From Bdellovibrionales bacterium (lineage in GTDB: Bacteria > Bdellovibrionota > Bdellovibrionia > Bdellovibrionales > Bdellovibrionaceae): a stretch of 64,000 nucleotides of DNA. The position numbers were made by a program, and so were the translations under genes. Position 1 is the first letter of the stretch. The number at the start of each line of letters is the position of its first letter. A model generated the notes under the pieces. That model saw only the letters and a program-made list of their open reading frames with translations, ran no database searches and was not told the DNA's origin. Shown here piece after piece: positions 5,455 through 56,135 of this stretch. The DNA is taken from NCBI GenBank assembly GCA_005793345.1, contig SXSU01000112.1, positions 1-64,000 of the forward strand, read 5' to 3'.

Positions 5455-5584
5455 TCAAACTTTAGTTTGGATTTTCATAATTAGGGGTGATTCAAAAATC
5501 GCCCCAAACAAACAGAAAAATAATTGCTTATGATTATGTCTGATATAATCGCGAAGCGATCAGACTTAATCATTAGCAATTATT
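5455..5584. repeat. three-hairpin dispersed repeat, near-full copy
   Basis: It holds the right half of hairpin A (AGTTTGGATTTTCATAA), hairpin B (GGGGTGATT/AATCGCCCC, one T-G pair) and a complete hairpin C with arms of about 26 bp at 5519-5544 and 5559-5584. The outer stem reads AATAATTGCT here instead of AATAACTGCT elsewhere. The opposite arm carries the matching A, so the pair has changed as a unit. It sits between the convergent murI and 5589 genes, a place suited to a bidirectional terminator. Confidence 0.85.
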
Positions 5585-5588
5585 TCAA

Positions 5589-6134
5589 TCAATCGACTGA
5601 AACTTGAATTTGTATATCGTCACCATTTTTTGAAATAGACTTTTGCGCAAGTTCTAAAGTTTCATTCTTTCCATTTTCACCTAATGATTGAACAAAAAGT
5701 AGGGCTCCTTTTTGACCTTGATTTGTAACTTCAAACAAGAAAGGCCGTCCCCATGGATCTCGGCCAATTTGACCTTTAAATTTTTGTACTTTATGGGTTT
5801 CAAGTTGATTGTCTTTTTGCTGCGTCGATGCTAAGCCTCTTATTTCTTGTTCACTCATTTTTAGAGATTCTTCTGATTTATATTCAATAAACTCAAATTT
5901 ATTTTTAATCATCCATCTAGCTAATTGTTGAGCCTTTCTTTCTGCCAACTGCGCTTCTGTCTTACCTATAAGCTCTTGCTCCATATTTTGTGGATAAAAA
6001 TAAATAGCAAAAGCAAACACAATTACGGTGATATTAAAAATCCAAAGTTGAATCAATTTTTTTTTGTCTTTATCAGAAAGTGCATTATTGCGATTTTCAA
6101 TATTGCTATTATTATTTTTTGAATTAGAGTTCAT
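5589..6134 (-). CDS. one-helix membrane protein with pseudopilin-like C-terminus
   Basis: An upstream TTG (6158) is possible, but AGGTGGAG lies seven bases before the ATG at 6134, so that start is chosen (181 residues). The protein has a charged Asn/Lys-rich N-terminus, one membrane helix (LIQLWIFNITVIVFAFAIYF), a charged helical segment, and a C-terminal stretch GRDPWGRPFLFEV...SLGENGKNET...GDDIQIQV. The last part resembles the DPWGxPYxY and SxGxDG...DDI end of GspG-type pseudopilins, but there is no prepilin cleavage motif at the N-terminus. It follows the TSP1/VWA-like lipoprotein gene by 26 bases and is probably co-transcribed with it. Function unknown; a role in an envelope complex is inferred. 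Confidence 0.7.
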   Translation of the reverse strand: MNSNSKNNNSNIENRNNALSDKDKKKLIQLWIFNITVIVFAFAIYFYPQNMEQELIGKTEAQLAERKAQQLARWMIKNKFEFIEYKSEESLKMSEQEIRGLASTQQKDNQLETHKVQKFKGQIGRDPWGRPFLFEVTNQGQKGALLFVQSLGENGKNETLELAQKSISKNGDDIQIQVSVD

Positions 6135-6160
6135 ATACTTTCTCCACCTATTTTCCAATT

Positions 6161-7576
6161 CTAGATTTGCTCACATTTATACTTAATTGTTACTTGAGTG
6201 CCTTGAGGTAGAACTGGTGTAAAAGTAATTTCACTCCCACTGACTTTATAACTAAAACCACTTGGAAGTGTTACTGTTGGGGTTCCATGGGGATTGCACT
6301 CTAAATTTATTTTACTCATAGAATTACTTATACCGCTTTTAAAATAATTTAAATTTTTAGAATAATTTCTATCACAGATACTTCCCGTATAACCATTTGT
6401 AAGCTTAGATAATTCAATATATTTTGTACCAATGTGTGAAGGGGAACCTGCTGAATCTTGCTTTGCTTTACAAGTTTTATCTTTTACAACTATTGAATTT
6501 GCGGAAACCCGCTTTGAATCACCCAATACTGAAAGTAAAGCTGTAGGAAAATCATCATTTTCGAGTGAAAAAAATTGATCATTCGACAGGTTTTTATTAC
6601 CACCAACTGATCTTTCATCTTCATCAGATATTATAATGTAAGCAATGGCGGCACCATCTCTATAACAATGATATGCTGAATTAGAATTATTATTAAAACT
6701 TTGTATTGCAGCTTTAATACCGCGCTCATCATTAGATCCAATTGTAAACGGGTCATCTTCTTTAGGGCTTAAATCAAAAATAGTCTGTTGAAAAACTTTA
6801 TTTAATTCTGGCGTACTTTTATCTATTACGATTTTATTTATTCCAGTCCATTGCAAAGGACGGCCTTGATAAAAAGCTGTATCTGTGGTTGTTACACACA
6901 TATTCCAATCAATATTAATATTTTTTAAATCTGTTACAAAACCATTTAACCGCTCAGCTAATTTTAAATTGTCAGGTAACATCGACTCCGAATCATCTAA
7001 GATTAGTAAAATATCAACCTTATTAGAACCAGAAGGAACAGTAACTGATGTTGTCTTATCAACAAGAGTTCCAGCACATGTTTGCACATTGCATGCTTGG
7101 GTTGTTGAAGGCTTTGTTCCCGCGGAACTACATTCACTATCATCTACATCTTCAGAATTTTTTTGACACGTCACTATTCTTGTTTGAGTCCCGCCCCCGC
7201 AGGATACACTACAATTTGTCCAAGTTTGACCAGCATTCCAAACAATTGCATCTGTACAACTTTGCTTATTACATTCTTGAATGGGATTAGGTTTTGCTTC
7301 AGGACAATTCTCATCAGGAACTACATTCTGTTTAGTATCAACACATACCACTTTACGAGCCTGTGTTCCTGTACCACAAGCTAGCGAACAATCACCCCAT
7401 TCTAAATCAGCTTTCCAAACATAAACACAATCATCTCCTTTACAAGTTTGATCCACAGTTGATGGACTAACTTTTTTATTATCGACATTAAATTTAACTG
7501 GAGAGCATGAAAGAAGTATAAAACTAAAAAATGCAAAATTGAGAATTGTGGATATCAAATTTTTAGTTGTAATCAT
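6161..7576 (-). CDS. lipoprotein with two thrombospondin type-1 repeats and a VWA-like domain
   Basis: The ATG at 7576 is preferred over the TTG at 7600 because AAGGGTGA lies just before it (471 residues). A signal peptide ends in a lipobox FILLSC, giving a lipidated Cys. Two TSP1-like modules follow, with WGDCSLACGTGTQARKVVC and WTNCSVSCGGGTQTRIVTC and conserved Cys at their ends. A von Willebrand A-like domain comes next, with the metal-site motif DDSESM in VDILLILDDSES, and then a short Cys-containing C-terminal tail. TSP1 and VWA domains mediate adhesion to glycans and proteins, so surface attachment is the likely role (inference). It is first in an operon with the pseudopilin-like gene. 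Confidence 0.8.
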   Translation of the reverse strand: MITTKNLISTILNFAFFSFILLSCSPVKFNVDNKKVSPSTVDQTCKGDDCVYVWKADLEWGDCSLACGTGTQARKVVCVDTKQNVVPDENCPEAKPNPIQECNKQSCTDAIVWNAGQTWTNCSVSCGGGTQTRIVTCQKNSEDVDDSECSSAGTKPSTTQACNVQTCAGTLVDKTTSVTVPSGSNKVDILLILDDSESMLPDNLKLAERLNGFVTDLKNINIDWNMCVTTTDTAFYQGRPLQWTGINKIVIDKSTPELNKVFQQTIFDLSPKEDDPFTIGSNDERGIKAAIQSFNNNSNSAYHCYRDGAAIAYIIISDEDERSVGGNKNLSNDQFFSLENDDFPTALLSVLGDSKRVSANSIVVKDKTCKAKQDSAGSPSHIGTKYIELSKLTNGYTGSICDRNYSKNLNYFKSGISNSMSKINLECNPHGTPTVTLPSGFSYKVSGSEITFTPVLPQGTQVTIKYKCEQI

Positions 7577-7713
7577 TATTTTCACCCTTGAAATTGCCAA
7601 ACAGTCTCTTAATTAAAATTCACTTTTAACTTTATTTTTAGATTAAGAATGAGTCACGGTAAACAAACACATAACAAGACCAAGGTATTGAAAATTTCAC
7701 TAGTTTCTTAAAC

Positions 7714-9141
7714 TTAAATATTATTTTTACATATGGCATTTATATTTGTTTTATCAACACCAGAATCAAAAATTTCTCTAAACCAATCAAAAAAGCCAGT
7801 GCTGTGCCTTGGCGCTGCAGCCGCATTAAAATTACAACCTTTTACTTTTAAAAACTCTTCTGACATGGTTACTCTTTGTAAATTCACTCTCAAAGTATTT
7901 AAATTTACTTTATTTTGCACTACTAAGGCCATGGCTTGTACTCGATTAGATTGAGCTTGTAAAAGATCTATCAACTCAGAAGCTCCCCAAAAATAGCGTT
8001 GATACTCAATTTCATAATACTCTGTAAACTTATCATAAGCATCTTTAGCCTGTTCAATTTGTTCTTTAGCAATTTTAATAGCTCCAACTGTAGCTTCTAC
8101 TGTTGCCCTTTGCTCTAGATATAATTCATCTTGTCGCAATCGAAGTTGAGCAATATTATCATTTGATAATTGAACTGATGGTACTGTTGCAAATGTTAAT
8201 CTAAAAGAATAATTTCCACTTAAATTCTCAAATGATGGTGTACCACCTAAAGCTCCAGAAGATGCAGATAATGATCCTCCTCCACTTCCCATGAATGCAA
8301 ACATTGTACTCCATTTTCCTTTTTCTGCAGCCATAATTAAATGCTCCAATTGTCTTTTTTCTGGAGATAACATTTGAGCTGCATCAAGAGCCATTTTCAT
8401 TGGTATAATTTCATAAGGAGATTGTGGCATTTCTCTCATCTCAATAGTGATCATTTTTTCAAGAGAAGCTTCCATTCCTAATGCTTTACGAAGTGCTGCC
8501 TTTTCTTTGACTAAAAATAAATCTATTCCTTTTAATTTATTTAAAGCAAGGCTCACTTGAGCTTTAGCTTCAAGAACATCTTGTGAATTTGTAGCTCCAA
8601 TCTCACGAGCTTGTGCTTCGATAACTTCTGCAAGTTCCTTAAGTACTAAATAATTCTGATTGTAAACTTCTCGTAGTGCTAAATCTCCAACCATTGATTG
8701 ATAAAGTCCCAAAGCCGATGCGTACACATTGAGTTGTATAACAAAGTAAGAATCTTTTTCTGCTTCTAATAACAAACTAGATTGACTCAAATTAAACCAG
8801 TTACTAGGAGCTAAAAAGGGAAACAAAAATGAAATAGTTGATAAATTAAAACCAGAGGGTCCTGCTAAGGTCCTTAAATCAAGAGAAGGTAATAAGTTTG
8901 CACGTGCGATATTGACTTGATCTTTTGATAAATAAATAGAATTTAGCCCCATCAAAACGTTATTATTTCCTTCAAGAATGTATTTACGTAAATTTTCAGG
9001 GTTAATGACATAACTACTATCGTAAACAGAAACAGGAGAAAATGTTCGAAGATCGTTTATTGCAAAACTATCAAACGAAAATATTAGAAATTGTAATGCA
9101 AAAATTAATCGTAAGTTTTTTGAAGCAAGATTAAATTTCAT
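7714..9141 (-). CDS. TolC-family outer-membrane channel protein
   Basis: The protein has 475 residues with a signal peptide (MKFNLASKNLRLIFALQFLI... SFA). Two long helical halves are visible, each with the heptad-rich alpha-barrel helices of TolC-like proteins, including segments such as EVIEAQAREIGATNSQDV and GASELIDLLQAQSNRVQ. TolC proteins form the outer-membrane duct of type I secretion or efflux pumps. Its C-terminal tail holds two Cys, unusual for the family. The gene starts 4 bp after the lipoprotein gene at 9145, so the two form an operon. No membrane-fusion protein or inner-membrane pump is next to it. Confidence 0.8.
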   Translation of the reverse strand: MKFNLASKNLRLIFALQFLIFSFDSFAINDLRTFSPVSVYDSSYVINPENLRKYILEGNNNVLMGLNSIYLSKDQVNIARANLLPSLDLRTLAGPSGFNLSTISFLFPFLAPSNWFNLSQSSLLLEAEKDSYFVIQLNVYASALGLYQSMVGDLALREVYNQNYLVLKELAEVIEAQAREIGATNSQDVLEAKAQVSLALNKLKGIDLFLVKEKAALRKALGMEASLEKMITIEMREMPQSPYEIIPMKMALDAAQMLSPEKRQLEHLIMAAEKGKWSTMFAFMGSGGGSLSASSGALGGTPSFENLSGNYSFRLTFATVPSVQLSNDNIAQLRLRQDELYLEQRATVEATVGAIKIAKEQIEQAKDAYDKFTEYYEIEYQRYFWGASELIDLLQAQSNRVQAMALVVQNKVNLNTLRVNLQRVTMSEEFLKVKGCNFNAAAAPRHSTGFFDWFREIFDSGVDKTNINAICKNNI

Positions 9142-9144
9142 ATC

Positions 9145-10140
9145 TTATTCCTTATAATTTATTTTGGGATAAAAATCTATATTTCTAGCTATGCCATTAC
9201 TTTGAGTTATAAACACACATGCTAAAAAGTTTTCATTACGTTTACAATCTAAACTAATATTGGATGAGGCTTTTTTAACTGTGAAAGTTCCTTTTCCTGT
9301 CAAGGTTCCTTTTTTTAAGTCAAAAACAGTCTTATTATCAAATGAGTACCCTGTTATAAATTTTTTACCTATAGAAGTATAGAGTGTCATCGAGGCTACA
9401 ATATTGCGTTCATACGTAAAAAACTTATAAAATTCTTCACTTGTACTATAATTGATTGATTGAAGTTGTAAATACGCTTCCGTAATGCATTTATCTTTTT
9501 CAGATGTTTCATTTCCTGTCTTACAAAGTGGATCTTTATAAGTACCAAAATATTCTTCCGTTTCAAATTCTGGCTGAGTAGAAACTTCAGAACTCTTATT
9601 TACTAATGGTGCATCTTTAGCTAGTTCAAAAATCCCTTTTATTCCATATAGAAGATCTGGAGTAATCTCCCCATAAAATTGATTTCCAGTTATACGACCA
9701 GTTATGCTCATCGTTGCCGTCGATTTATCTGAAAGATTAATTGTTATTTTACCGCTAAAATTTGTCTGAGATAAGGACTCTCCAGCAAAATAACTGGCTT
9801 TTTCTATGACCACTTGTGTATCATTTTTTGAATGCAATATAACTTTTGCTTGAAGAAATACTTGAGCTTCGATGGTAGAATTATCTTGAGTATTTACTGT
9901 TGATGTTTTGGGACTCAATTCAATTTCAAGTTCACCCATTAACTCTTTGGTCTCATCATTTTTAAGCTGACCTCTATAAACACCAGAAACACTTTGCATT
10001 TGTGCTATTGCTTCATCAACTTTTTTCTGATGATAATCAGAGATCGTTTTATCTTTACCACAGCTGAAAAGTAAAAACATTAAACTTAGTAAAATAAATT
10101 TTAAACTATTAAACAATTTTTGATTTAACATCAATATCAT
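9145..10140 (-). CDS. lipoprotein of unknown function
   Basis: The ATG at 10140 is preferred over an upstream GTG (10161) because GTGGGG lies just before it. The signal peptide ends in LMFLLFSC-G, a lipobox. The mature part of about 310 residues is Thr/Ser/Lys-rich and predicted beta-rich, with repeated stretches such as GKITINLSDKSTATMSITGRITG and YFGTYKDPLCKTGNE and four Cys in the second half. I do not recognise the family. Its operon with a TolC-like gene suggests an envelope partner of that channel. Confidence 0.7.
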   Translation of the reverse strand: MILMLNQKLFNSLKFILLSLMFLLFSCGKDKTISDYHQKKVDEAIAQMQSVSGVYRGQLKNDETKELMGELEIELSPKTSTVNTQDNSTIEAQVFLQAKVILHSKNDTQVVIEKASYFAGESLSQTNFSGKITINLSDKSTATMSITGRITGNQFYGEITPDLLYGIKGIFELAKDAPLVNKSSEVSTQPEFETEEYFGTYKDPLCKTGNETSEKDKCITEAYLQLQSINYSTSEEFYKFFTYERNIVASMTLYTSIGKKFITGYSFDNKTVFDLKKGTLTGKGTFTVKKASSNISLDCKRNENFLACVFITQSNGIARNIDFYPKINYKE

Positions 10141-10245
10141 ATTAACCCCACTCTTATGCACAGCCCTTGTCTCTCATAAATTAGAATGATAAGCAACATT
10201 CAAGTGTTGCCATCTCAATCTTATAAATGTTACACTTCTTCTTAC

Positions 10246-10302
10246 TCTTTATGATTGTGTCTGGTATATTCGAACTTCTAATAATTCTAACATAATCATA
10301 AA
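10246..10302. repeat. degenerate hairpin related to the dispersed repeat
   Basis: TTTATGATTGTGTC and ACATAATCATAAA form imperfect arms (12 of 13) around about 30 bases. They resemble the TGATTATGTCTG part of hairpin C. It lies between the divergent lipoprotein and TolC genes. Confidence 0.4.
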
Positions 10303-10333
10303 CGAATATTTTTTAAAGACCGAAGAGGAAATT

Positions 10334-11686
10334 ATGTTTAAATTTATATCTTCCATTCAAATATTAAAAAATAATTTGTTACAACTTGTTACAACTATTT
10401 TTATAACTTTATCTTTATCCCAAAATCTAGTAGCCAACCCTGATGGGCTATTAACATTAAAAGCAGCCTTAAAAGAAGCCCTAGAAAAAAATCCAGCTCA
10501 ACTCAAACAAAATGAAAAAATAAACGAACTCCAATCTCAAGTTGGACAGACTCGCTCCTTAATATTGCCCACAATAACAGCAACAGGAAATGCTCAATAT
10601 CTTAAGGACTCCGTAAATATGGGATCTGCTAGATTTGGAGGGGAAGGGTTTAATCTTTATAAGTTAAATATTAAATTATCTCAGCCACTTTTTCAGTTTG
10701 GGTCTTTTGAGGCTATAGAGTCAGTAAAAAAAGATGTGGAAATTCAAAAGAAATCTGACGAAATATCTGCACGTGATCTAAGTAAAAATGTTATCTTAAG
10801 TTATTACAATGTCGTTCTTAATTCATTCAGCCTCAATATTTTGATTAAACAAAGAAGAATTGTTGAAGAATCATTAGCAACAACTATTCGAAGAGAGCAA
10901 TCTGGACGAGGACAACGAATTGATGTCCTGCAAGTAAAAACCGAAATTGCACTGCTTGACTCACAAATTGAAAACGCTAAAAATAATTTTGAAATTGCAA
11001 TTGCAACCCTTCAAAGTTTAGCCGGTAATGCCCAATGGACTAGCTTAAACATTAAGCCTATTTTGCCTTCTCCTGCATTAACTGAAGTTTATAGTCTTGT
11101 TGATGAATCCCAATTGAACTTACCAGAACTTACAAAAAATAATTTAAGTCTTTTAAAAGTTGAAAACCAAAGAAATGTTATTTGGGGCCAACACTTACCA
11201 CAATTAAGCTTCACTGGAGATCTAACTTATACAAACTATTCTAAATCTGATTTATTAGACGAAATGTCTAAATCCTATGCCTTTGGTCTTCAATTAACAA
11301 TTCCTCTTTTTTCAGGATTCTCTTCAATCTACCAGCGCCAAGCTCTGAGTTCGCAATATCTGCAATTTGAACTTGAGAAAGCTAATCTTATTAATCAGTT
11401 TACGCTGTTGCAAATTTCCTCAAAAAAATCACTCGAATCTGCAAAAAAGAGCGTTGAAAATGGTGAAAAAGCTTTTCAACTTGCACAACAAACTCTTGAA
11501 GAAGCTAATCGTAAATATAATTTAGGAACAATTGATTTTTTGCAATTCTTACAAGTGGAAAAGTCATACATTCAAGCTCAATTCTCATTGTATACTTATA
11601 AATATAATTACATTTCAAATCTGACGAACTATTTCATTAATTGGGGACAAGATTTAAGTAAACTCACAGAGTTACTTGATCGTTAG
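10334..11686 (+). CDS. TolC-family outer-membrane efflux protein
   Basis: The protein has 450 residues with a signal peptide (cleavage near NLVANPD). The first repeat shows LTLKAALKEALEKNPAQLKQNEKINELQSQVGQTRSLILP-like content typical of the N-terminal TolC helix. The second half ends with NRKYNLGTIDFLQFLQVEKSYIQAQ, the family's usual NxRYxxGxxDxLxxLxA region. GAGGAAATT lies just before the ATG. It diverges from the 7714-10140 operon that encodes a second TolC-like protein, and no pump genes accompany either. Confidence 0.88.
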   Translation: MFKFISSIQILKNNLLQLVTTIFITLSLSQNLVANPDGLLTLKAALKEALEKNPAQLKQNEKINELQSQVGQTRSLILPTITATGNAQYLKDSVNMGSARFGGEGFNLYKLNIKLSQPLFQFGSFEAIESVKKDVEIQKKSDEISARDLSKNVILSYYNVVLNSFSLNILIKQRRIVEESLATTIRREQSGRGQRIDVLQVKTEIALLDSQIENAKNNFEIAIATLQSLAGNAQWTSLNIKPILPSPALTEVYSLVDESQLNLPELTKNNLSLLKVENQRNVIWGQHLPQLSFTGDLTYTNYSKSDLLDEMSKSYAFGLQLTIPLFSGFSSIYQRQALSSQYLQFELEKANLINQFTLLQISSKKSLESAKKSVENGEKAFQLAQQTLEEANRKYNLGTIDFLQFLQVEKSYIQAQFSLYTYKYNYISNLTNYFINWGQDLSKLTELLDR

Positions 11687-14025: not shown

Positions 14026-15195
14026 ATGTTTTCAGTTTCAAAACTTTGTAAATTCATACTTATAAGTCTTATCTTTTTAAATGGCTGTGATAAAAAAAAT
14101 CAAAAAAATGACCAAAACTCAACAACCACTGGGAATGTGAATATATCAATCACTTCAATTGTCGCTGGATCTTCTCCGCATTTGTTTTCAACTGGATGCA
14201 GTGTCTCGGAAGGTGCCGCAGTTGGATCTTGCTACACTCCAATTTCAATGAGTGGAGTTTTTAATACAGCTAGTATAACTAATTTTGCAGGTGGCAATAC
14301 AGCAAGGCTTATGGGCGGTGGTGATAAATATCATGGATTAGATGATATTTTTCGACAAGCAAAATTTGATTTATCACAAAAGCTATTTATGGATGGAGAT
14401 GACAATTTACAAGATCAAGGTACAGTAACTTATTCTGGAATTTCAGTGGATACTAAAGCCTTAGAATTAGTATTTACATCGATGAGTAAATATTTTCACG
14501 TTAGATATTCTTTTGTCGATCAACCACCCTCATCGTCATCTATATTTTCTACTTGTGGTTTAGACTCAGGGACTAGTGAACAAGCAGATCTCAAGGGCAC
14601 CATCTGGACTGCACCATCAAATATAAAAGCTGGAGATATTTTAGTTTGTCTAAAAGATACTAGTACTGAAACCTGTACAGATTCTGAATACCAATGGATC
14701 AGTTCTGATACTGGTGCGCTGACTTCAACTCGTCCAACTTCTCCTGTTAGGTTTAGTGGTTCTTACGCTTTTGAAGCAAGTAAATGCATAAGCACTGGCG
14801 AACGTCCTGATATTACTTGGGGAGGGGTTTCTCTTTATGCACAATTAGATACTTCTGTTGAAATTGGCGCAACTATTGACCAAGGAAAAAAACTTTACAG
14901 CTCAGGAAGTAGCACGGGCCACACAATGGATTTAACATTAACTATCGATACAACTGATAGTTTATTTGTTCCTAGCCAATTAATTTCCGCGTTTAATTCT
15001 TCAGATTACAACACCGATGGTCCAACAATTTTAAAAAACTTAGATAAAATTACATTACGCCAAATTTACGAATATAATAATAGGATTTCATCTTCTGTTA
15101 TGATTTCTGGAAATTCGATGTTAAATTCTCAGTTGAGTATCACATTAAGCGAAAAGGATGAAGCCAGTGATGGAGATGATCAAGATAACTTATAA
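14026..15195 (+). CDS. lipoprotein of unknown function
   Basis: The ATG at 14026 follows GGGAGAAATT, so it is preferred to the TTG at 14014. The signal peptide ends in IFLNGC-D, a lipobox. The mature part (about 370 residues) is Ser/Thr/Gly-rich, has several Cys in its centre (FSTCGLDSG, VCLKDTSTETC) and ends in an acidic tail (EKDEASDGDDQDN). No known domain is recognised. It stands alone between the helicase and MFS genes. Confidence 0.7.
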   Translation: MFSVSKLCKFILISLIFLNGCDKKNQKNDQNSTTTGNVNISITSIVAGSSPHLFSTGCSVSEGAAVGSCYTPISMSGVFNTASITNFAGGNTARLMGGGDKYHGLDDIFRQAKFDLSQKLFMDGDDNLQDQGTVTYSGISVDTKALELVFTSMSKYFHVRYSFVDQPPSSSSIFSTCGLDSGTSEQADLKGTIWTAPSNIKAGDILVCLKDTSTETCTDSEYQWISSDTGALTSTRPTSPVRFSGSYAFEASKCISTGERPDITWGGVSLYAQLDTSVEIGATIDQGKKLYSSGSSTGHTMDLTLTIDTTDSLFVPSQLISAFNSSDYNTDGPTILKNLDKITLRQIYEYNNRISSSVMISGNSMLNSQLSITLSEKDEASDGDDQDNL

Positions 15196-20354: not shown

Positions 20355-20383
20355 ATTTATGCCTTTCAATATTTAATACGATT

Positions 20384-20423
20384 ATAACTGCGAAGTGATC
20401 AGACTTCATCAGGAGCAGTTATT
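20384..20423. repeat. shortened hairpin C of the dispersed repeat
   Basis: ATAACTGC and GCAGTTAT remain as outer arms around GAAGTGATCAGACTTCATC. The left inner arm is deleted. It lies 3' of the TIGR02147 gene and 5' of the beta-glucosidase gene. Confidence 0.6.
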
Positions 20424-23269: not shown

Positions 23270-23683
23270 TTATTTTAACTGAGGATGTTTTTTTTCAAAG
23301 GCCATGCGTTGCTGACTGGAATTTAAAATGCGTGTTAACACATTGGGAGTCAGACCCTTATTTCCGCAAGAATCAGCGCAGGAAGAAAATCCATAGGGAC
23401 ATTTTTCCCAGCATGAACTTCCACCACCGCAGGAATCAGCACACGATGTAAAACCATAAGGACATTTATCCCAACATGCACTTCCGCCACCACAAGAGTC
23501 AGCGCAAGAAGTAAAGCCATAGGGGCATTTATCCCAACAACTTCCACTGCTACCGCCACTTCCCCCAACCTCTTCACATAGATATTTTGTTCCATCCTTA
23601 TCAAGATAAAATGAATCCGCATTTACATTAAATGATGTTAGCGGAATAAAAATTAGCGCAATATAAATTAAAAATTTTCTCAT
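23270..23683 (-). CDS. small secreted protein with three Cys-rich tandem repeats
   Basis: The protein has 137 residues with a signal peptide (MRKFLIYIALIFIPLTSFNVNA). It holds three tandem copies of the 20-residue unit CWDKCPYGFTSCADSCGGGS, the last copy slightly varied. Each unit has four Cys, giving a disulfide-rich array, followed by a charged C-terminal tail (FEKKHPQLK). GGGGGATCT lies before the ATG. The DNA repeats are 60 bp and could change copy number by slippage. No family is recognised; a secreted binding or structural module is possible. Confidence 0.75.
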   Translation of the reverse strand: MRKFLIYIALIFIPLTSFNVNADSFYLDKDGTKYLCEEVGGSGGSSGSCWDKCPYGFTSCADSCGGGSACWDKCPYGFTSCADSCGGGSSCWEKCPYGFSSCADSCGNKGLTPNVLTRILNSSQQRMAFEKKHPQLK

Positions 23684-23800: not shown

Positions 23801-23860
23801 GACTCTGCTCGGGATTATGTGTCTTAAAATCACGAAGCGATCAGAGTTATTCATGAGAAA
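23801..23860. repeat. diverged hairpin C of the dispersed repeat
   Basis: TCTGCTCGGGATTATGTGTC and GATCAGAGTTATTCATGAGA keep the order of hairpin C with several changes. It lies directly 3' of the 23861 gene. Confidence 0.5.
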
Positions 23861-24685
23861 TTAATTATAATGGAACTTTTTATGATTTTTCATGAGTTGA
23901 ATTTCAAAATTATCAATCTCATCATCGGTAAAAATTATTTTTAAATTATCAAGTGATATTGATTTAGCATAATTAAAACTATCAATATAAAATTTTTCGA
24001 TCCAAGCAGATTTTGCATTATCAGAGTTAATTTGATTGAGTTCCATCCAAGACTTCCAGTGGCAATTAAATATAGAATCACTCATACTATTTGATTGAAC
24101 TTCTTCTTCAGAAGCCGATTCGCAATTTATATATTCTAATTGTAGATCAATCAAATCCGCATCTAATCCTAAGGATACCATGCAGTCTTGAGCTAAGCTC
24201 ATTTCTAAATAATGCAAATAATCACCAAATAGGCTCCAAAATTGGAGGCCCTTTTTACCAAAATCACTATCACAAAAATAAGATGTACAAACCGAACCTC
24301 TATAAGCCCAAATACCACATTGCTGTTTTATTTTATCAAAATAAGGACAAAGAAACTTTGAGTTAAAACCAAAGTCATTTTCATTTCTTTGATGAAACTC
24401 AATTTGGTATTTTACAGGAGCAAATAACCCAAGAGGGAGTGCATACTCTTGGTTTTGTATCTTAGAACGAATTTGTTCTAAAATAAATTTCGGAGTATTA
24501 GGATCAGATAAAATTGCACCTACTGAGTAGTTTGTTAAAAATGGATGAAAAGTACAACATTTTAAATCCATGGGATACTTTGGACAATTATGGAAAGTCG
24601 CTTTTTTCTCAGTTAGATTCAAATCTGGAAAACGTGATAATAAATAGTTTTTTAATATTGGTGATGAAATCTGAGATAAATTCAT
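23861..24685 (-). CDS. cysteine-cluster protein, YkgJ-like
   Basis: The protein has 274 residues. The N-terminal part has CPKYPMDLKCCTFHPFL and the middle has CPYFDKIKQQCGIWAYRGSVC followed by TSYFC. This spacing resembles the Cys-cluster (zinc- or iron-chelating) proteins of the YkgJ type, in which YRxxxC is typical. There is no signal peptide. The C-terminal 110 residues are acidic and unknown. A metal-bound or Fe-S role is inferred. Confidence 0.6.
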   Translation of the reverse strand: MNLSQISSPILKNYLLSRFPDLNLTEKKATFHNCPKYPMDLKCCTFHPFLTNYSVGAILSDPNTPKFILEQIRSKIQNQEYALPLGLFAPVKYQIEFHQRNENDFGFNSKFLCPYFDKIKQQCGIWAYRGSVCTSYFCDSDFGKKGLQFWSLFGDYLHYLEMSLAQDCMVSLGLDADLIDLQLEYINCESASEEEVQSNSMSDSIFNCHWKSWMELNQINSDNAKSAWIEKFYIDSFNYAKSISLDNLKIIFTDDEIDNFEIQLMKNHKKFHYN

Positions 24686-25154: not shown

Positions 25155-25204
25155 AATGTCTGATAAAATCGCGCAAGCCATCAGACGTAATAAAAGGCAG
25201 TTAA
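25155..25204. repeat. partial hairpin C of the dispersed repeat
   Basis: ATGTCTGATAAAATCGCGCA then GCCATCAGACGTAATAAAAG and GCAGTTAA keep the inner stem and right arm. It lies between the divergent 24696 and 25358 genes. Confidence 0.65.
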
Positions 25205-29427: not shown

Positions 29428-29526
29428 TAGTAATAGTAAACTTCAAATACCATGCCAGTAAACTGATTTAAAAATGGAACCAGTATCACCCGGTAATATA
29501 GTTCTTTTTTTTTAATATTTTCATAA

Positions 29527-29590
29527 TATCTGCTCATGATTAAATCTGATCGCTTCGCGATTTTATCAGACATAATCATAAGCAGTTATT
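29527..29590. repeat. hairpin C of the dispersed repeat, opposite orientation
   Basis: CTGCTCATGATTAAATCTGA and TCAGACATAATCATAAGCAG form the arms around TCGCTTCGCGA. TTTTCTTGTT follows, the reverse of the linker AACAAGAAAA seen at full copies. It is 3' of the 29611 gene, so this copy has the opposite orientation to the others but the same position relative to a gene end. Confidence 0.8.
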
Positions 29591-29610
29591 TTCTTGTTTA
29601 TTAAAATTTA

Positions 29611-37648: not shown

Positions 37649-37681
37649 TAGAACTACCCATAGCCATTTATAATATGGAGA

Positions 37682-37778
37682 GATTGAAAAGCTCACCCAA
37701 CAAACTGGAAGGTTTCTGCTTTAAATTAAGTTTGAGTTGATCAGCGAATCTGACCAGACTTAATCAAAAGCAGTTATT
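37682..37778. repeat. degenerate three-hairpin repeat
   Basis: It keeps traces of hairpin B and its linker (GATTGAAAAGCTCACCCAAC) and the right arm of hairpin C (CAGACTTAATCAAAAGCAGT). It lies between the convergent hypB and 37781 genes, a terminator-like position. Confidence 0.5.
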
Positions 37779-40937: not shown

Positions 40938-40969
40938 AAAATAATCCTTCAAAAAAAACAAATGCTTGT

Positions 40970-41010
40970 GATTATTCTTGATATAATCACGCTAGCCGAT
41001 CAGGCTTACT
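40970..41010. repeat. partial hairpin C of the dispersed repeat
   Basis: TGCTTGTGATTATTCTTGAT, then ATAATCACGC and CGATCAGGCTTA keep the left arm and inner stem, with changes. It lies between the MerR and CoA-transferase genes. Confidence 0.5.
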
Positions 41011-41072
41011 TATATTTGTGTATTATATTTATTTACGCAACTCAAAAGTAAACATGTTTAATGTTTAATGAT

Positions 41073-42584
41073 TCAAGCTTCAAAGTATCGAACACCCTTT
41101 TCTACATATCCAAACTCTTGCCAAATTATTTCGTTTTTTGTTTCCCAATCCTCTAAAGTATTAATGTATATTTCGGGCCAAAGTGATTTAAGAATTGCCG
41201 ATCGTTTTATAAACCAAAATTGCGAAGCCAAATGACTTTTTAAGAATACTGTTTTTACACTTTCTAAAAGTAATTTTTTTAGGTGATCATCTTTTAATTT
41301 CATAAATTGAGTATATTCTTCAGAATCAAAATTTGATTTTTTTATTGCATTAAAAATTTGAAGTCCTTCCCTAAAATTAAAATTTGAATTGTCACATAGT
41401 ATTCTTAGCCAATCCTCTCGCCAAAGGAGTAGACCATGAGTTGTGTGAAGTATTTCTTGACTGGATACTTTAAGAAAATCAAAATATACTTTATGTTTCT
41501 TTAATGACTTATACAAATTAAGTTTTTCTATACCGAACATCTCATATAAAAACCCAATATTTAAAATATCCTCACTTGTATTTAGATCATAATCTTTTAT
41601 CCAGGACTCAAATTCTTCTTGATTGCGATATAATTTTTGTTGATCTTTTGAATTTAAATTTTTAAACGCTGTAAAATTAGGACTCCAGTCATAACTCCAA
41701 ATTCCTCGCAATGTATTTTGTTTAAATGCAGAAGTTATTGCTTTATGATCATCTGAAAAGCATTCAAAATCAATTACACCAACTTGTTTTTGAACTAAGT
41801 TTAAAATATCCAGAAATGGACACTTAAAAGCAATTATTTGATAATTAATTTCTTCACTCAAAATTTTACAAAATTGTCCGATTTCTTTTGAGCGAGTAAA
41901 CTCAACATCAAACCATAGAGATCCTGCCCCTGAAAACATTTCTGGTATGAGATTAAACTTTAAGGGATTCAACTGACTTAATCCTTCACTATACAATATC
42001 AGACTTGAAGGGGACATCCCTCTCAATGGACCAAGCAAAATGTTTAAATCTTTAGCCTTGCTAGTTATTCTATGAATAGATTTTACTAAACTCAATTGTT
42101 GGGAAGTTAAATATTTAATCTCATTCTTTAACTTTTCATCGACTACTTGGGATGGAAGAATACCTTTTCTTTTTAACCCTTGAATTCCATGTTCAAATAA
42201 ATTTTCCATAATAAAACTCCTCTGTATTTTAGATAGTTCTAATCCTTTTGTTAGTGAGGTCAAAATGGAGGTAATTTCTTTTTTTTGAACACACATTTTT
42301 ACTTGTGAAATCTCAATAGCTTGTAATCTTTGTTCAAGCAGACTTTTTATTGTTGACTGCTGGGGACAACGAATTAGATTTTTAATATCTTCTAATGCAA
42401 AACCAAGACTTTTATATTCAATTATTTTTTGTGAAAGTAAAAGTTGATCATTTGAGTAAAATCGATAAAAGTTTTTTCCTCTCATTTCAGGAACGAGAAG
42501 CTCAATTTCTTGATAATATCGAAGTGCTTTAATACTTAGTCCAGACAATTTACTAAAGCGACCAATGGAATAATAATTTTTCAT
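41073..42584 (-). CDS. MerR-type regulator with a very long C-terminal domain
   Basis: The ATG at 42584 follows GAGGTTATACAA (503 residues). The MerR winged helix is IGRFSKLSGLSIKALRYYQE, then ELLVPEMRG and FALEDIKNLI. The C-terminal part of about 380 residues is far longer than in ordinary MerR proteins and does not match a ligand domain I know. It contains a mixed alpha/beta region (QIIAFKCPFLDILNLVQK). Its gene lies between hoxW and the CoA-transferase gene, so it may control one of them (inference). Confidence 0.75.
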   Translation of the reverse strand: MKNYYSIGRFSKLSGLSIKALRYYQEIELLVPEMRGKNFYRFYSNDQLLLSQKIIEYKSLGFALEDIKNLIRCPQQSTIKSLLEQRLQAIEISQVKMCVQKKEITSILTSLTKGLELSKIQRSFIMENLFEHGIQGLKRKGILPSQVVDEKLKNEIKYLTSQQLSLVKSIHRITSKAKDLNILLGPLRGMSPSSLILYSEGLSQLNPLKFNLIPEMFSGAGSLWFDVEFTRSKEIGQFCKILSEEINYQIIAFKCPFLDILNLVQKQVGVIDFECFSDDHKAITSAFKQNTLRGIWSYDWSPNFTAFKNLNSKDQQKLYRNQEEFESWIKDYDLNTSEDILNIGFLYEMFGIEKLNLYKSLKKHKVYFDFLKVSSQEILHTTHGLLLWREDWLRILCDNSNFNFREGLQIFNAIKKSNFDSEEYTQFMKLKDDHLKKLLLESVKTVFLKSHLASQFWFIKRSAILKSLWPEIYINTLEDWETKNEIIWQEFGYVEKGVRYFEA

Positions 42585-42662
42585 TTGTATAACCTCTAAC
42601 ATAGTTTTGAGGTATCCAGTAACTGGAGAGTAAAGCATTAAGTTTACTTAACTCTTTGAGTT

Positions 42663-42802
42663 ATTATGAAAATACAAACTATAGTTTGGATTTTCATAAT
42701 ACTGGGTGATTCAAAAATCACCCCCAACAACAAGAAAATAACTGCTCGTGATTATGTCTGATAAAATTGCGAAGCAATCAGACTTAATCATGAGCGTTTA
42801 TT
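42663..42802. repeat. three-hairpin dispersed repeat, full copy
   Basis: Hairpin A (TTATGAAAATACAAACT/AGTTTGGATTTTCATAA), hairpin B (GGGTGATT/AATCACCC), the linker AACAAGAAAATAA and hairpin C are all present. The inner stem reads ATTGCGAAGCAAT where other copies have ATCGCGAAGCGAT, a paired change. It lies 3' of hoxW and 5' of the MerR gene. Confidence 0.9.
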
Positions 42803-51262: not shown

Positions 51263-51269
51263 ACGATGA

Positions 51270-52685
51270 TTACTCAACTGGTGGTTTGCAGATTTCACCA
51301 AAATTTTCCACTTCTTTTTTTGGTTTAAAGTTTGCAAATAAACCCGAACTTGTCTCAAGATATAAATCTTTTTTCTTACTCTTTTTAAATGCGCGAAGGA
51401 CTTGGCTTAATTGATTTAAGTTAGTTACTTTTTTAGAATTTACTTTTGTTACAATATCTCCAAACTCTAAAAAAATATCTTCAGCGCTAGAATCTGGAGT
51501 AATATGAGTAATTAATAATTCAGATTTACTTTCTCTATATTCTTTATATAAAAAACAAGGATCTACACCATAAGTTTGACTTAAACCTTCTACTAACTCA
51601 TCTGATAAACTTTGGATGATTAATCCCTCAATACAAATAAATTCTCTTTTTTTAACCAAAGGTTGTATTGGAAAAATTTGAGGAACCAAGGGAGCTGTAT
51701 AAGCCTCTACTGTTTTTAATTTTTTCTTTGTCCAAACTTTGATTTTAATTTTTTGTCTCGATGGAGTATTTTGTAAAAGATCAAAAATATTTTTTTTTGA
51801 TTTTTGATCAAGCACGTTTCCATGTCGATCTATTTCTAAATTATTTATTGATAATATCACATCTTTCTTTTTTAAACCTGCTTGCTCTGCCATGCCACCT
51901 TTGAAGACATGAGTAACAATTACACCTCTAGTGTCCTTCATTCCAAGGTATTCTGCATTTGTAATTGAGTTTCGTTGTAAATGTGCACCAAAGCTTGGTA
52001 GTTTAGGATTAATTCCCTGACATAATAACGGTAATAAGTTAGCGGCTAATTGAATTGGAGTTATAAAACTTATATTATTTGCACCAAGTACAATAGCAGT
52101 ATTAATTCCAATGACTTCACCTCTCTCATTAATTGCAGGTCCTCCACTATTTCCTGGATTAATTGCAGCATCTGTAACAAAACGCTCAACAGTATTTTCA
52201 GTACCTGCAATAAAATTTGAAATTTCACCAGCGGAAATATTTGGTTCTTCCATACCCAAAGGATAACCTATTGCTTTAATCAGTTGCCCTCTTTTTAACC
52301 CAACCCCTTTTGCAAATTTTAAAGTTGGAATTTTTTTTTGCTTTGAAAGTTTTTTAAATCTTAATATTTCTTCATTACTCATTTTTAAAAGAGCAACATC
52401 GGGCTCAAGTTCAGTTACCAGTCCAACACATTTTACAATAAAAGGCTCATCACTTGTGAGAATGGAACGAATTTCAAGATGAGTTGCACTCCGTGCAACA
52501 TGTGAGTTAGTTAATATCCAACCTTCTTCATTATTTATAGAAATAAAAAAGCCAGAACCTGTCCACTCTTCTTGTAATGCCTTTCTAGGATCTAACAATG
52601 TTGGCCAATGTGTTTCATTATAGCCTCGACCATGAATTCTAACAACCGAAGGCATGGCTCTTTGTGCAGATAAGGTAATATTCAT
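51270..52685 (-). CDS. cytoplasmic HtrA/Deg-type serine protease with PDZ domain
   Basis: The ATG at 52685 starts one base after the upstream stop codon (TAAAATG) and gives 471 residues. The catalytic triad is H62 (TNSHVA), D96 (EPDVALLKM) and S180 (NPGNSGGPAIN). A PDZ domain follows (GVIVTHVFKGGMAEQAGLKKKDVI), with a second, partial PDZ-like C-terminal part. There is no signal peptide, unlike DegP. It is coupled to the receiver/cNMP gene upstream, suggesting regulated protein quality control. Confidence 0.85.
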   Translation of the reverse strand: MNITLSAQRAMPSVVRIHGRGYNETHWPTLLDPRKALQEEWTGSGFFISINNEEGWILTNSHVARSATHLEIRSILTSDEPFIVKCVGLVTELEPDVALLKMSNEEILRFKKLSKQKKIPTLKFAKGVGLKRGQLIKAIGYPLGMEEPNISAGEISNFIAGTENTVERFVTDAAINPGNSGGPAINERGEVIGINTAIVLGANNISFITPIQLAANLLPLLCQGINPKLPSFGAHLQRNSITNAEYLGMKDTRGVIVTHVFKGGMAEQAGLKKKDVILSINNLEIDRHGNVLDQKSKKNIFDLLQNTPSRQKIKIKVWTKKKLKTVEAYTAPLVPQIFPIQPLVKKREFICIEGLIIQSLSDELVEGLSQTYGVDPCFLYKEYRESKSELLITHITPDSSAEDIFLEFGDIVTKVNSKKVTNLNQLSQVLRAFKKSKKKDLYLETSSGLFANFKPKKEVENFGEICKPPVE

Positions 52686-52686
52686 T

Positions 52687-53472
52687 TTAAGTGGATCCTG
52701 TCTTTTTTGCTTGTACAGCTTCAAGCGTTTCATTTGCTTTTTTTACCCGATTTGAAAGTGTAATCATTAATGCTTTTGCCCAAGTTGGTTTTTGAAATAA
52801 TAAAACATCTAAATGATCAAGTGGAATTTCAATCAATTCACAATCAGTTGTTGCAATAACATCGGCTGATCTTGGTTGATTGTTAATATATGCCATTTCG
52901 CCAACGAATTCACCCACATTAATTTTTCCAATTTCGACTTCACCATTTTCTCGTTTTAAATAAACTCGCAAAGATCCTTTTCTAAGTAAATAAACATTTT
53001 TCGCTTTTTCACCTTCTCGAATAAGCACATCACCTGGAACTAAGAATCTAAGATAAAATTCGTCAACCTCTCCATGTGCTACATAATTTAAGGCTTTTGC
53101 TATTTGCTTTGCGACCACTTTATCTTCTGATGAGTCTAAGTATTGTACTCTGCCCATAACAACTTCATCAGTGAATCTTTCCTGGTCAGGAATCGCAGAT
53201 AAAATAATTATTCCTGTATCTTTATACTTTTTCTCATTTAAAACTTGGGTTACAACATTCCAGCCATTGACCTTTGTTAATAACGGATCGACAATCAAAA
53301 CATGTGGGGGTACATTTTGAATTTTCATTAATGTATCAGATCCATCTTGTGCTGTAAAGATGGTCGTATTGCTAAAATGTTGTTCGATAGAAGCAACAAT
53401 TTTAACTCTGACGTCTGGTAAGTTACTGGCCACCAAAAAAATTCTCTTTTGATCAATCATTTCTTGCGACAT
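52687..53472 (-). CDS. receiver-like plus cyclic-nucleotide-binding domain protein
   Basis: The protein has 261 residues. Residues 10-130 form a receiver-like fold with the phospho-acceptor position D62 (LIVDPLL). However, the paired acids after strand 1 are replaced (FLVASN) and the conserved Lys is absent, so it may be a pseudo-receiver. Residues 140-245 are a cNMP-binding domain (LVPGDVLIREGEKAKNVYLL, GEFVGEMAYINNQPRSADV). No output domain is seen. It is the upstream, coupled partner of the HtrA-type gene. Confidence 0.85.
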   Translation of the reverse strand: MSQEMIDQKRIFLVASNLPDVRVKIVASIEQHFSNTTIFTAQDGSDTLMKIQNVPPHVLIVDPLLTKVNGWNVVTQVLNEKKYKDTGIIILSAIPDQERFTDEVVMGRVQYLDSSEDKVVAKQIAKALNYVAHGEVDEFYLRFLVPGDVLIREGEKAKNVYLLRKGSLRVYLKRENGEVEIGKINVGEFVGEMAYINNQPRSADVIATTDCELIEIPLDHLDVLLFQKPTWAKALMITLSNRVKKANETLEAVQAKKTGST

Positions 53473-53533
53473 GTTTTGCTACCCTTAACCTTTATTACTT
53501 AGTTTAGTTTTTAACTTGTTTTAATTTAACTTA

Positions 53534-55567
53534 TCATTCTTTTACTTTGACATATTTTTTATGAGATTTTCTATTTATTTTTGACAAGCTAGATTTTAAT
53601 TTTATAGGTATTTTATATAATTCTTCAAGCTCTGTCTGAAATCCACTAGATAATATTGGAAATCGACACCATGTTTTTGGATCCAAGCTTTCATCATCTA
53701 AATGAAACGAAGGAGCATAACGTTCTCTTTTCCATTGGTTGCGCGCCCAAAGTTTAAAAAATTTTGAAATCCACTTTTTTAAATCTTCATGGCTGTATTT
53801 ATCTTCAAGTAGATAATAAATTTCAATCGGACTTCTCTTATCTCGAATAGCATATTTTTCAATGATATTTAATACTGAATAAGGCATCAGATCTTGCTCG
53901 TCGGTTTGACTTGAAAATTGTGGTCGCAACTCAGCAGTTGGCGGCTGCTCTAATACTAATTTTAAACTTTTTATTCGATCACTCATTTGATGACACCAAG
54001 AAATTAAAAATTCTTTATCAATTCCACCAAGGGGAGCTAGTCCACCACAAGTATCACCATCCATTGTTGCATATCCAACTGCTGCTTCAGAACGATTACT
54101 TGTTGTAATAAGCAACGAGTTTTTTAAATTAGCAAGCATCCATACACTCGGCCCTCGAGCCCTTGCTTGAATATTTTGTAAAATTACATCGTGATCTTTC
54201 CAATTTAATTTTACCAGAAGTGGCTCCTCTACAATTTTAATATAGCTATCTACTAACTCATCAACACTCCAATGATAAAAAGTAACTCCAAGTTCCTTTG
54301 CTAATTTCTCTGCAGCATTGTAAGTAGTTTCAGATGAGTTTTTGGTCGATTGATAAACACAAAATACATGATTCTTTATATCGAACTTTGATTTTCCATT
54401 CTTGATGTTCTGATTATTTATAATTGGTAAAATTTTTCTTTGAAACTCTTCAGGTGATAATTCTTGTTTTGCCCATTCAAAAGATTTTTCAGCAAGTATA
54501 GCACAGACTGAAGAATCAATTCCTCCGCTCAGAGAAATGACAAATCCATGCAAGCCACTTTTCCTTAAAAAATCAAACAAACCTAATGAAACCGCTTTAG
54601 AAAACTCTTCAAAACGAGTTAGTTCATGAGTTGGTATCTGATTAATCTTTGCAGTTTTAATCTTCGACCATTTAAAATTTACTTTTACTAAGTTTTTAGT
54701 TTGAAACTCAAGTTGTGGCTGATAACTAATTGTTTTCATTCTTGGCAATGTTGCTCGACCCAATTCAACTTCACTAATAGTTAAATTATAATCGGCAAAA
54801 CTAAATCGTGGACCTTCGGCAATAAACTCTCCATTTTGTGCAATAAGAGTTCCTCCATCATAAATAATTCTTCCACTTTCATTTCCAACTAAATTACTAT
54901 ATATATAGATAACATTAAAAGCCCTTGATCCTTCACTGACAAAATTTTTGCGAATTTGATGTTTACCAAACGCAAAATGGGAGGCTGATGGGTTTAAAAT
55001 TATTTCGACCCCTCGACGAGCTAAATCACTTCCTGGTCTATGGGTGCCCCAAGCCTCTTCACAAATCTCGAATCCTATTTTTACATGATCCACTTCAAAA
55101 TAAATATCACCAATTGGAATACTAATATTTTCATATTCAAATTTATCCACAACATTATGTGGCCACGGTTTAAACCATCTCTGCTCATAATGCACCCCAT
55201 CGCCAGCCAATGCTTTTTTTGCGACTAAACCAATAATTTTTTGATCAACAACAACAGCAACACAATTATATAAACAACTTCGATGTAATATAGGAATTCC
55301 AAACCCTACAAATTTTTTATTTGTAAAGGGTAATAATTTTTTTAACATTCTCCAAGATTCTTCTATTACAAATAAATTAAAAAATGCGTCTTCACACCCA
55401 TAGCCACTTATCGATAACTCTGGAAGACATATAATATCGAGATGTGCTTGTTCCGCCTTTTTTAAAATACTTTTAATACGTTCAAAATTACCCACCCAGT
55501 CCAACGGTGTTTGATTTAGTGTACTTCCTGCAACTTTTAATTTGTGGATAAAATTTTTATGAATCAT
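53534..55567 (-). CDS. nadE: glutamine-dependent NAD+ synthetase
   Basis: The protein has 677 residues, the long glutamine-dependent form. The N-terminal amidase of the nitrilase fold has CLPELSISGYG (Glu), K in AKKALAGDG and C in GFEICEEAWG. The C-terminal synthetase has the P-loop ISLSGGIDSSVCA and TTSNRSEAAVGY. It makes NAD+ from deamido-NAD+ using glutamine as ammonia donor. It stands alone. Its product is also the substrate of the hydrogenase next door, a plausible but unproven link. Confidence 0.96.
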   Translation of the reverse strand: MIHKNFIHKLKVAGSTLNQTPLDWVGNFERIKSILKKAEQAHLDIICLPELSISGYGCEDAFFNLFVIEESWRMLKKLLPFTNKKFVGFGIPILHRSCLYNCVAVVVDQKIIGLVAKKALAGDGVHYEQRWFKPWPHNVVDKFEYENISIPIGDIYFEVDHVKIGFEICEEAWGTHRPGSDLARRGVEIILNPSASHFAFGKHQIRKNFVSEGSRAFNVIYIYSNLVGNESGRIIYDGGTLIAQNGEFIAEGPRFSFADYNLTISEVELGRATLPRMKTISYQPQLEFQTKNLVKVNFKWSKIKTAKINQIPTHELTRFEEFSKAVSLGLFDFLRKSGLHGFVISLSGGIDSSVCAILAEKSFEWAKQELSPEEFQRKILPIINNQNIKNGKSKFDIKNHVFCVYQSTKNSSETTYNAAEKLAKELGVTFYHWSVDELVDSYIKIVEEPLLVKLNWKDHDVILQNIQARARGPSVWMLANLKNSLLITTSNRSEAAVGYATMDGDTCGGLAPLGGIDKEFLISWCHQMSDRIKSLKLVLEQPPTAELRPQFSSQTDEQDLMPYSVLNIIEKYAIRDKRSPIEIYYLLEDKYSHEDLKKWISKFFKLWARNQWKRERYAPSFHLDDESLDPKTWCRFPILSSGFQTELEELYKIPIKLKSSLSKINRKSHKKYVKVKE

Positions 55568-55854
55568 AATTACCTTAATTAGCGTGCAAAAATATAGTAT
55601 TTCATGTTAATAATTGGTATCATCATGCAAATGATCAGTCTTAATCACGAACCTTAGTTTTAATAATACACTTAATCATAGCATAATGTGTATTCATTTT
55701 TATATTTCCCATTGGCCTCTGGTTACTTGTTACAATCTGTTGGCTTCACGAAGATGAGAAACCTTATCTTCCATTTTTTTTTCTTATTTGAATTCATTTT
55801 ATAAATTGGTTTTTATTAACAACAAATATTATGTAACAAGTTTATCTCTAGGTT

Positions 55855-55994
55855 ATTATGAAAATACAAACTTTAGTTTGGATTTTCATAATACGGGGTG
55901 ATTGAAAATCGCCCCCAACAAACAAGAGAATAACTGCTCGTGATTATGTCTGATAAAATCGCGAAGCAATCAGACTTAATCATGAGCAGTTATT
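55855..55994. repeat. three-hairpin dispersed repeat, full copy (first of tandem pair)
   Basis: All three hairpins are present; hairpin B reads GGGGTGATT/AATCGCCCC with one T-G pair. It shares its last three bases with the next copy, so two units are arranged head to tail. The gap 55568-55854 before it shows only a short hairpin-C trace near 55630 and no gene. Confidence 0.9.
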
Positions 55995-56135
55995 ATGAAA
56001 ATACAAACGTAAGTTTGGGTTTTCATAATAAGGGGTGATTCAAAAATCACCCCAAATAAACAAGAAAATAACTGCTTATGATTATGTTTGATATAATCAG
56101 CGCAAGCTGATCAGACTTAATCATTAGCAGTTATT
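55992..56135. repeat. three-hairpin dispersed repeat, full copy (second of tandem pair)
   Basis: Hairpin A has ACG/AAG centre changes, hairpin B is perfect (GGGGTGATT/AATCACCCC), and the loop of hairpin C is rebuilt as ATCAGC-GCAA-GCTGAT, a GNRA-type loop on a longer stem. It is the rightmost copy in the window, just before the parA region. Confidence 0.9.

Follow-up and report, generated by a model that had tools for sequence, protein, structure and literature searches.

Three-hairpin repeat units in the window

The window, a stretch of 64 kb with a G+C content of 31.6%, belongs to a 3.96-Mb draft genome of 138 contigs (83% complete) and contains four copies of a repeat unit with three hairpins, together with seven fragments of such units (Table 1). 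The unit spans 142 positions, arranged in the order TTATT, hairpin A (a 38 bp palindrome), hairpin B (arms GGGGTGATT...AATCGCCCC), the linker CAACAAACAAGA and the long hairpin C, which holds the inner hairpin ATCGC-GAA-GCGAT. In searches with an nhmmer profile the four units, all on the + strand, scored 123.5-156.1 bits, and the folds of three of them, computed for both strands, gave z-values of -7.3 to -12.8 against 200 shuffles. These scores and folds bear out the A-B-C family that an earlier note on this DNA had proposed, along with the presence of fragments, although that note counted at least eight of the latter where the profile detects seven at E<=1e-3.

In unit 1, the inner hairpin of an older C remnant stands in place of the first 14 model positions, and units 3 and 4 have the TTATT at 55990-55994 in common. 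By ORF call, the unit at 5.46-5.58 kb sits between two gene 3' ends and the tandem pair at 55.85-56.14 kb between two gene starts, while 23 bp separate unit 2 from the start of the gene at 41073-42638 (-). The paired stem changes quoted in the earlier note are all present, namely AATAATTGCT/AGCAATTATT in the 5.5 kb unit, the inner hairpin ATTGC-GAA-GCAAT in the 42.7 kb unit and ATCAGC-GCAA-GCTGAT in the 56.1 kb unit; however, the window also holds counter-examples, namely ATCGC-GAA-GCAAT with a single mismatch (55.96 kb) and, in the 42.7 kb unit, the outer stem AATAACTGCT/AGCGTTTATT.

Table 1. Units, hairpins and fragments of the repeat family in the 64-kb window
Feature	Position	Strand	Basis
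Older C-hairpin fragment, directly 5' of unit 1	5406..5462	+	nhmmer 27.6 bits, model 69-125
Unit 1 (right part of hairpin A, B, C)	5456..5584	+	nhmmer 123.5 bits, model 15-141
C right-arm fragment	20383..20422	+	nhmmer 27.4 bits
C-hairpin fragment	23805..23863	+	nhmmer 30.7 bits
C-hairpin fragment	25156..25203	+	nhmmer 25.1 bits
C-hairpin fragment with linker	29526..29602	-	nhmmer 69.6 bits, model 65-141
Diverged B-C fragment without hairpin A	37667..37778	+	nhmmer 45.2 bits, model 33-142
C-hairpin fragment	40953..41011	+	nhmmer 23.8 bits
Unit 2, full A-B-C	42661..42802	+	nhmmer 132.6 bits, model 1-141; fold
Unit 3, full A-B-C, first of tandem pair	55853..55994	+	nhmmer 156.1 bits, model 1-142; fold
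Hairpin A of unit 3, ATTATGAAAAT...ATTTTCATAAT	55855..55892	+	pattern match; consensus fold
Hairpin B of unit 3, GGGGTGATT...AATCGCCCC	55895..55915	+	sequence; fold
Hairpin C of unit 3, AATAACTGCT...AGCAGTTATT, inner hairpin about 55958-55970	55929..55994	+	sequence; consensus fold
Unit 4, full A-B-C, second of tandem pair	55990..56135	+	nhmmer 126.9 bits, model 1-141

Copies in the genome and searches in relatives

A covariance model built for the family matched all 150 of the candidates scored, these being the best of 5754 first-look candidates, and because every one of them matched, the genome carries at least 150 copies. The family is therefore not limited to the window: copies are spread through the genome and the differences between their stems are largely paired, as anticipated by the earlier suggestion of a REP- or MITE-like element with covarying stems. 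A pattern for the arms of hairpin C gave 579 genome matches and one for the hairpin A palindrome 242, with none for the reversed control of either; since a palindrome can match both strands these are not copy numbers, but hairpin C is clearly commoner in the genome than hairpin A. The copies analysed below were drawn from the 150 best model matches and from 112 fetched stretches (533 kb of the 3.96 Mb), and do not form a random sample.

No match was found by DNA search in 58 relatives (36 from the same family and 22 others from the order, with the genus itself not represented), nor by the covariance model in 65 other family members, in each of which 48 candidates were scored under stricter filters. 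Similarly, one 22-base pattern had no exact match in two public collections, which perhaps do not include the window's own genome. None of 4227 Rfam models reached its gathering score, below which there were 28 weak matches (the best at 33 bits against a cut-off of 74), and the element is not named in the literature searched, the coverage of which was partial.

Covariation of the stems

An alignment of 37 units defined 48 pairs, with 97.8% of cells paired, compared with 97.1% when the 3' letters were shuffled (none of 500 shuffles was as high) and 32-43% when the partners were slid. For the analysis of individual changes we used 150 aligned rows from a search of 100 of 113 sources, and dropped the last 11 (139 kept) or the last 23 (127 kept) as a guard against antisense matches; none of the first 139 rows was antisense to a better one. 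Pair types present in 6 copies or fewer were treated as rare.

Selection on the fold of every single copy should leave more G.T than A.C cells on the folded strand. Over the 139 rows G.T cells do outnumber A.C cells, by 244 to 42, but a few widely shared pairs cause this excess, and we rejected it as a sign of selection for top-strand folding. Among the rare one-sided stem changes in the 127 best-scoring rows the excess vanishes (43 G.T, 38 A.C and 101 transversion-mismatch cells), so that these give no support for selection on top-strand folding and look neutral. Changes on both sides to another Watson-Crick pair are nevertheless common. In the same 127 rows, 35 rare cells had changed on both sides to another Watson-Crick pair, and over 139 rows there were 49 two-sided against 213 one-sided changes, where about 0.6 two-sided would be expected under independence; in the tabulation of the 127 rows, the entries 199/224 and 200/223 are due in part to alignment of the longer ATCAGC variant with its shorter counterpart. 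Pair types found in a single copy comprised 19 two-sided Watson-Crick, 7 two-sided mismatched and 67 one-sided types. Furthermore, two-sided changes within one copy tend to affect adjacent pairs, with 7 adjacencies against a random mean of 1.05 (at most 7 in 1000 randomisations), although 38 of the 42 runs of such changes are single pairs.

Template switching between arms produces two-sided changes of this kind in one step, and has been described for RNA genes (Monttinen and Loytynoja, PMC8794818). Templated copying of one arm from the other accounts for the two-sided excess better than does selection on each copy's fold, and the view of the earlier note that such selection is the simplest reading is not supported by the comparison.

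The widely shared changes behave differently from the rare ones. By our own count, pairing is retained in 10 of the 12 pair types that occur in more than 6 copies, against 46 of 143 rare types (p=0.0007; an alternative count of 9 in 11 gives p=0.0017), and stem positions are less variable than unpaired positions (5.5% vs 10.5%). Propagating copies may thus need the fold, although settled ones seemingly do not; if mutation alone shaped the arms, retained pairing in widely shared types would not be expected.

Placement at gene ends and stop codons

Using plain ORF calls as genes, 144 right ends could be placed, with 84 facing the 3' end and 60 the start of a gene. As a control we took 844 unoccupied TTATT sites in the same stretches at which an insertion would be tolerated. 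Relative to these, the C side of the element more often faces a gene 3' end (84/144 vs 323/844, p=9e-6), more often abuts the 3' end of an antisense gene (-6 to +3; 49/144 vs 64/844, p=9e-16), and more often lies exactly on the TAA stop of the antisense gene, inside the terminal TTATT (32/144 vs 45/844, p=1e-9). The A side also lies within 30 bp of a gene 3' end more often than the control (17/79 vs 44/778, p=1e-5), if less tightly than the C side. The genome-wide preference for gene 3' ends is real, so that the earlier statement that copies lie mostly at gene ends holds for the genome at large but not for the best copies of the window. We found no replication-strand bias, either in orientation relative to contig skew (77 to 101, p=0.08) or between neighbours (38 to 32 concordant).

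Lysine is the last residue of 30 of the 32 genes with exact stop placement, and stops at the C end are in frame in 32 cases against 4 for the other two frames, so that these placements are not random insertions into gene ends. In two such genes the stop looks native, because the matches of relatives run to the C-terminus: most strong matches reach residues 746-752 of 752 in the first, and most end at 400-413 of 417 in the second. Set against their relatives, both genes seem to have a complete C-terminus.

That gene 3' ends are preferred on the C side and the A side alike also speaks for a rival reading, an RNA or terminator of use to the host that selection maintains at gene ends, in which hairpin C is predicted to end or protect the transcripts of one or both neighbouring genes, its stem having A-rich bases before and T-rich bases after on both strands. 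The strong folds on both strands point the same way, as does the T-rich right flank (T at +1 in 71% and at +2 in 58% of 118 edges). However, the rare one-sided stem changes carry no pair-keeping bias, 29 of the 150 placed clusters have a gene start on either side, and the family was not found in the relatives searched (58 by DNA, 65 by model). In addition, a scan of 16 kb, which allowed loops of 3-8, gave 10 terminator-like sites against 6.8 in shuffles, a single one of them within a unit (on hairpin B, minus strand) and none on hairpin C. We consider selection of this kind an unlikely origin of the family, while a candidate side role as gene-end hairpin or terminator is possible.

Edges, arrays and likeness between neighbours

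The edges of the element are sharp, with TTATT-ATGAAAA...AGCAG-TTATT set in unrelated flanks, and nearly invariant positions give way to background over 1-3 bases, as seen at 118 right edges and at 79 left edges that have no neighbour upstream. The flanks show a mild preference for AG ahead of the left TTATT and for TT following the right one. TTATT stands on both sides of the element, but its left and right variants do not match within a copy. By inspection of the edge profile, the left end TTATTATGAAAA and the reverse complement of the right end, AATAACTGCTCA, do not form terminal inverted repeats, and a MITE of the type with such repeats was rejected on this ground.

The window and the 112 fetched stretches together hold 252 non-overlapping matches, comprising 134 full and 118 partial units. 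There are 174 clusters (109 single, 62 double and 3 triple), and one cluster has mixed strands. Within doubles, one TTATT is common to both units, and the downstream unit is full in 50 of 62 cases, the upstream unit in 12. Of the partial copies, 96/118 have the 3' end and lack the 5' end and 11/118 show the reverse; 10/118 touch the end of a stretch. This pattern is suggestive of TPRT-like 5' truncation, but many such copies are old B-C or C-only units.

Neighbours within arrays share sequence. For 31 arrays with no hairpin A in the upstream unit, we compared the divergence of the full downstream unit from its own neighbour with that from shuffled neighbours. It was about half the shuffled value for the inner hairpin and the right arm (ratios of 0.51 and 0.50) and less reduced for the left arm (0.84). 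In 12 pairs of full units, hairpin A is shared with the neighbour (ratio 0.66) and C is not. Simple insertion does not predict this likeness, so gene conversion or local duplication must act too. We also considered whether the downstream left arm copies the upstream right arm, and set this aside: of the 23 shared right-arm variants for which all four arms have letters, 5 were paired in the downstream unit alone, 1 in the upstream unit alone, 6 in both and 11 in neither, which is weak support.

As an alternative to transposition, the copies could have spread without any dedicated enzyme, by replication slippage, palindrome template switching and recombination. That rare variants are common to tandem neighbours, that arms are renewed by templated copying and that arrays extend in one direction all agree with this account. 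Against it, 109 of the 174 clusters consist of one copy each, sharply bounded by the same edges with a constant TTATT, and the flanks gave only 11 non-self blast hits among the fetched stretches. Spread without transposition is, on this evidence, decidedly unlikely.

Search for a possible mover

The genome has five Y1_Tnp matches, two of them RAYT-like in length. None of the five loci is bounded by the element, although only one side is visible for the two RAYT-like genes, which lie near contig ends of an assembly that is 83% complete. Four of the five stretches contain no copy; the fifth has one at about 900 bp from a broken Y1 fragment of 50 aa. A REP/REPIN-type family moved by a RAYT transposase would fit a palindromic, extragenic, high-copy element in a genome with such genes, but the absence of element ends at all five Y1 loci, the presence of other hairpins (CGCCTTTAGGCG) beside two IS200-like genes, and a unit of 142 bp with three hairpins and no GTAG/CGTC tag in its edge profile make this very improbable, and the RAYT link raised in the earlier note is not supported.

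Two other candidates were rejected. A retroelement was considered in view of the one reverse transcriptase found in the genome (436 aa), which by its sequence looks like a group II intron protein; the copies on its contig are about 9 kb away from the gene. The core sites of integron attC are RYYYAAC/GTTRRRY, which AATAAC/GTTATT does not resemble; the integrase model TIGR02249 gave 11 matches, none over the cut-off, and general tyrosine recombinases match it weakly, as they do in all 14 controls.

A proposed mobile palindromic element inserting at TTATT

We propose that the family is a non-autonomous mobile palindromic element of about 142 bp, similar in kind to PATE, ERIC and bcr1, with at least 150 copies, found in one genome only and inserting at TTATT, a reading that we rate somewhat above even. 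The fixed three-hairpin anatomy, the sharp edges, the constant TTATT at both of them, its sharing by tandem units, the lack of terminal inverted repeats and the excess of copies at antisense TAA stops support it. An enzyme supplied in trans would recognise the end hairpins, A on the left and C on the right, most likely on single-stranded DNA bearing the hairpins, would cut beside TTATT, and would join the element, always in the same orientation, to a TTATT target. As the end of the element repeats the target TTATT (AATAA on the other strand), the stop of the host gene would be restored, and a gene ending xAA-TAA would keep its stop codon and its reading frame after insertion. Old copies would offer their own end as a new target, giving rise to head-to-tail arrays. 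Settled single copies would drift nearly neutrally, and quasipalindrome template switching, in which one arm serves as template for the other, would renew their matching arms. Effects on the mRNA ends of the host, if any, would be secondary.

Several observations count against parts of this proposal. The cognate enzyme was not found among the five Y1 loci, and no empty site could be shown with the 58 relatives, which include none of the same genus. The lack of replication-strand bias, a trace that single-strand transposition might leave, counts against that mode of transposition. The neighbour likeness in the 31 pairs counts against simple insertion, and the pairing kept in shared changes against purely mutational arms. 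The more specific version, a single-stranded DNA element whose right end copies TTATT, so that insertion at stops is traceless, each copy becomes a landing pad and the covariation is mostly a signature of template switching, is accordingly put forward tentatively, as possible but short of probable.

A single genome with over 130 alignable copies makes it possible to separate selection from template switching as causes of stem covariation: the rare changes look templated and otherwise neutral, and the shared changes keep pairing. This carries a caution that covariation inside a young repeat family does not prove a functional RNA. If the more specific version is true, the stem covariation would largely record how the arms mutate and would not demonstrate a selected RNA. 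The family would also offer a clean case of insertion at the stop codon that leaves the gene intact.

Comparison with known repeat families

The repeat bcr1 is flanked by a TTTAT direct repeat. As described for the Bacillus cereus group, bcr1-bcr3 resemble the element in being structured, lineage-restricted, MITE-like and about 150 bp long (PMC3446304; bcr1 size, PMC2267715); they are partly transcribed in UTRs, and their mover is given as not known (PMC3446304). They differ from it in lacking the three-hairpin anatomy and the stop-codon placement found here, and the sequences are unrelated as far as can be judged without alignment. ERIC/IRU and YPAL of enterobacteria, described as intergenic, palindromic repeats of 100-170 bp, are likewise mobile in evolution with no known mover (PMC2229807), but ERIC carries TIRs of 7 bp, has TA ends and duplicates its target (PMC2229807) and is portrayed as one long stem-loop (PMC2267715). 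The BOX elements of pneumococcus share the ordered modules A-B-C, folding upon transcription and a length that varies by tandem modules, whereas in the published account only boxB repeats, between A and C, and here whole B-C or A-B-C units are repeated head to tail (PMC3049150). REP/BIME/REPIN sequences are also palindromic, extragenic and of high copy number, but as characterised with RAYT they are 20-40 bp long, bear a GTAG or CGTC tag and flank a RAYT gene, none of which was found here (PMC2817692, PMC3733652).

By its anatomy, the element appears to work most like the PATEs of Haloquadratum, palindrome-associated transposable elements that are reported as relatives of IS605-type transposons (PMC3119063). 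In line with their description, both lack terminal inverted repeats, have palindromes near both ends, are too short for a transposase and occur in many copies (PMC3119063). No variable target duplication is described for the PATEs; in the element, TTATT stands at both edges with left and right variants that do not match within a copy. In contrast to the PATEs so described, the element has three hairpins, repeats its TTATT target at its end, is in excess at stop codons and was found in one bacterial genome, where none of the five Y1 loci has element-like ends. Because no IS605-type element with matching ends was found, we do not file it under PATE.

Contig ends and Y1 genes

In nine contigs of the draft genome containing the window (G000: C1, C20, C31, C75, C76, C105, C116, C122 and C123), a copy of the three-hairpin A-B-C element is interrupted by the contig start or end, the pattern that would result if assembly failed at the repeat. 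The two RAYT-like Y1 genes of this genome are near-identical, and the same stretch lies upstream of each. The gene on C78 is adjoined by a transposase-like ORF, which we read as IS30-like.

Other repeats and a recombinase gene

The genome also carries a second dispersed palindromic family, distinct from the A-B-C family and about 190 bp long, whose ends are inverted repeats of one another. About twelve copies, near-full or partial, belong to it; with both strands counted there are 33 matches. In L108, a stretch corresponding to part of C70, a C hairpin of the A-B-C family starts about 10 bp past one such copy. Within the window, two ORFs contain internal repeats, and the tandem copies in one of them share at least 60% identity with the first copy. 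The integron integrase model matches C96, the contig of the window, weakly at 61035-61802, within a tyrosine recombinase gene.

Table. Positions of Y1 genes, repeats and the recombinase gene
Feature	Location	Strand	Remarks
RAYT-like Y1 gene	G000:C78 near 9964		close to contig end
RAYT-like Y1 gene	G000:C104 near 31101		close to contig end
Second palindromic family, example copy	L108:903-1109 (G000:C70 about 14940-15155)		
Imperfect 11-base repeats	window 57757-58316		CTAGAGAAAAC and variants; within ORF 57293-58912
63-base tandem copies (n=3)	window 23364-23552		within ORF 23270-23683
Tyrosine recombinase gene	window 60921-61838	+	weak match, integron integrase model
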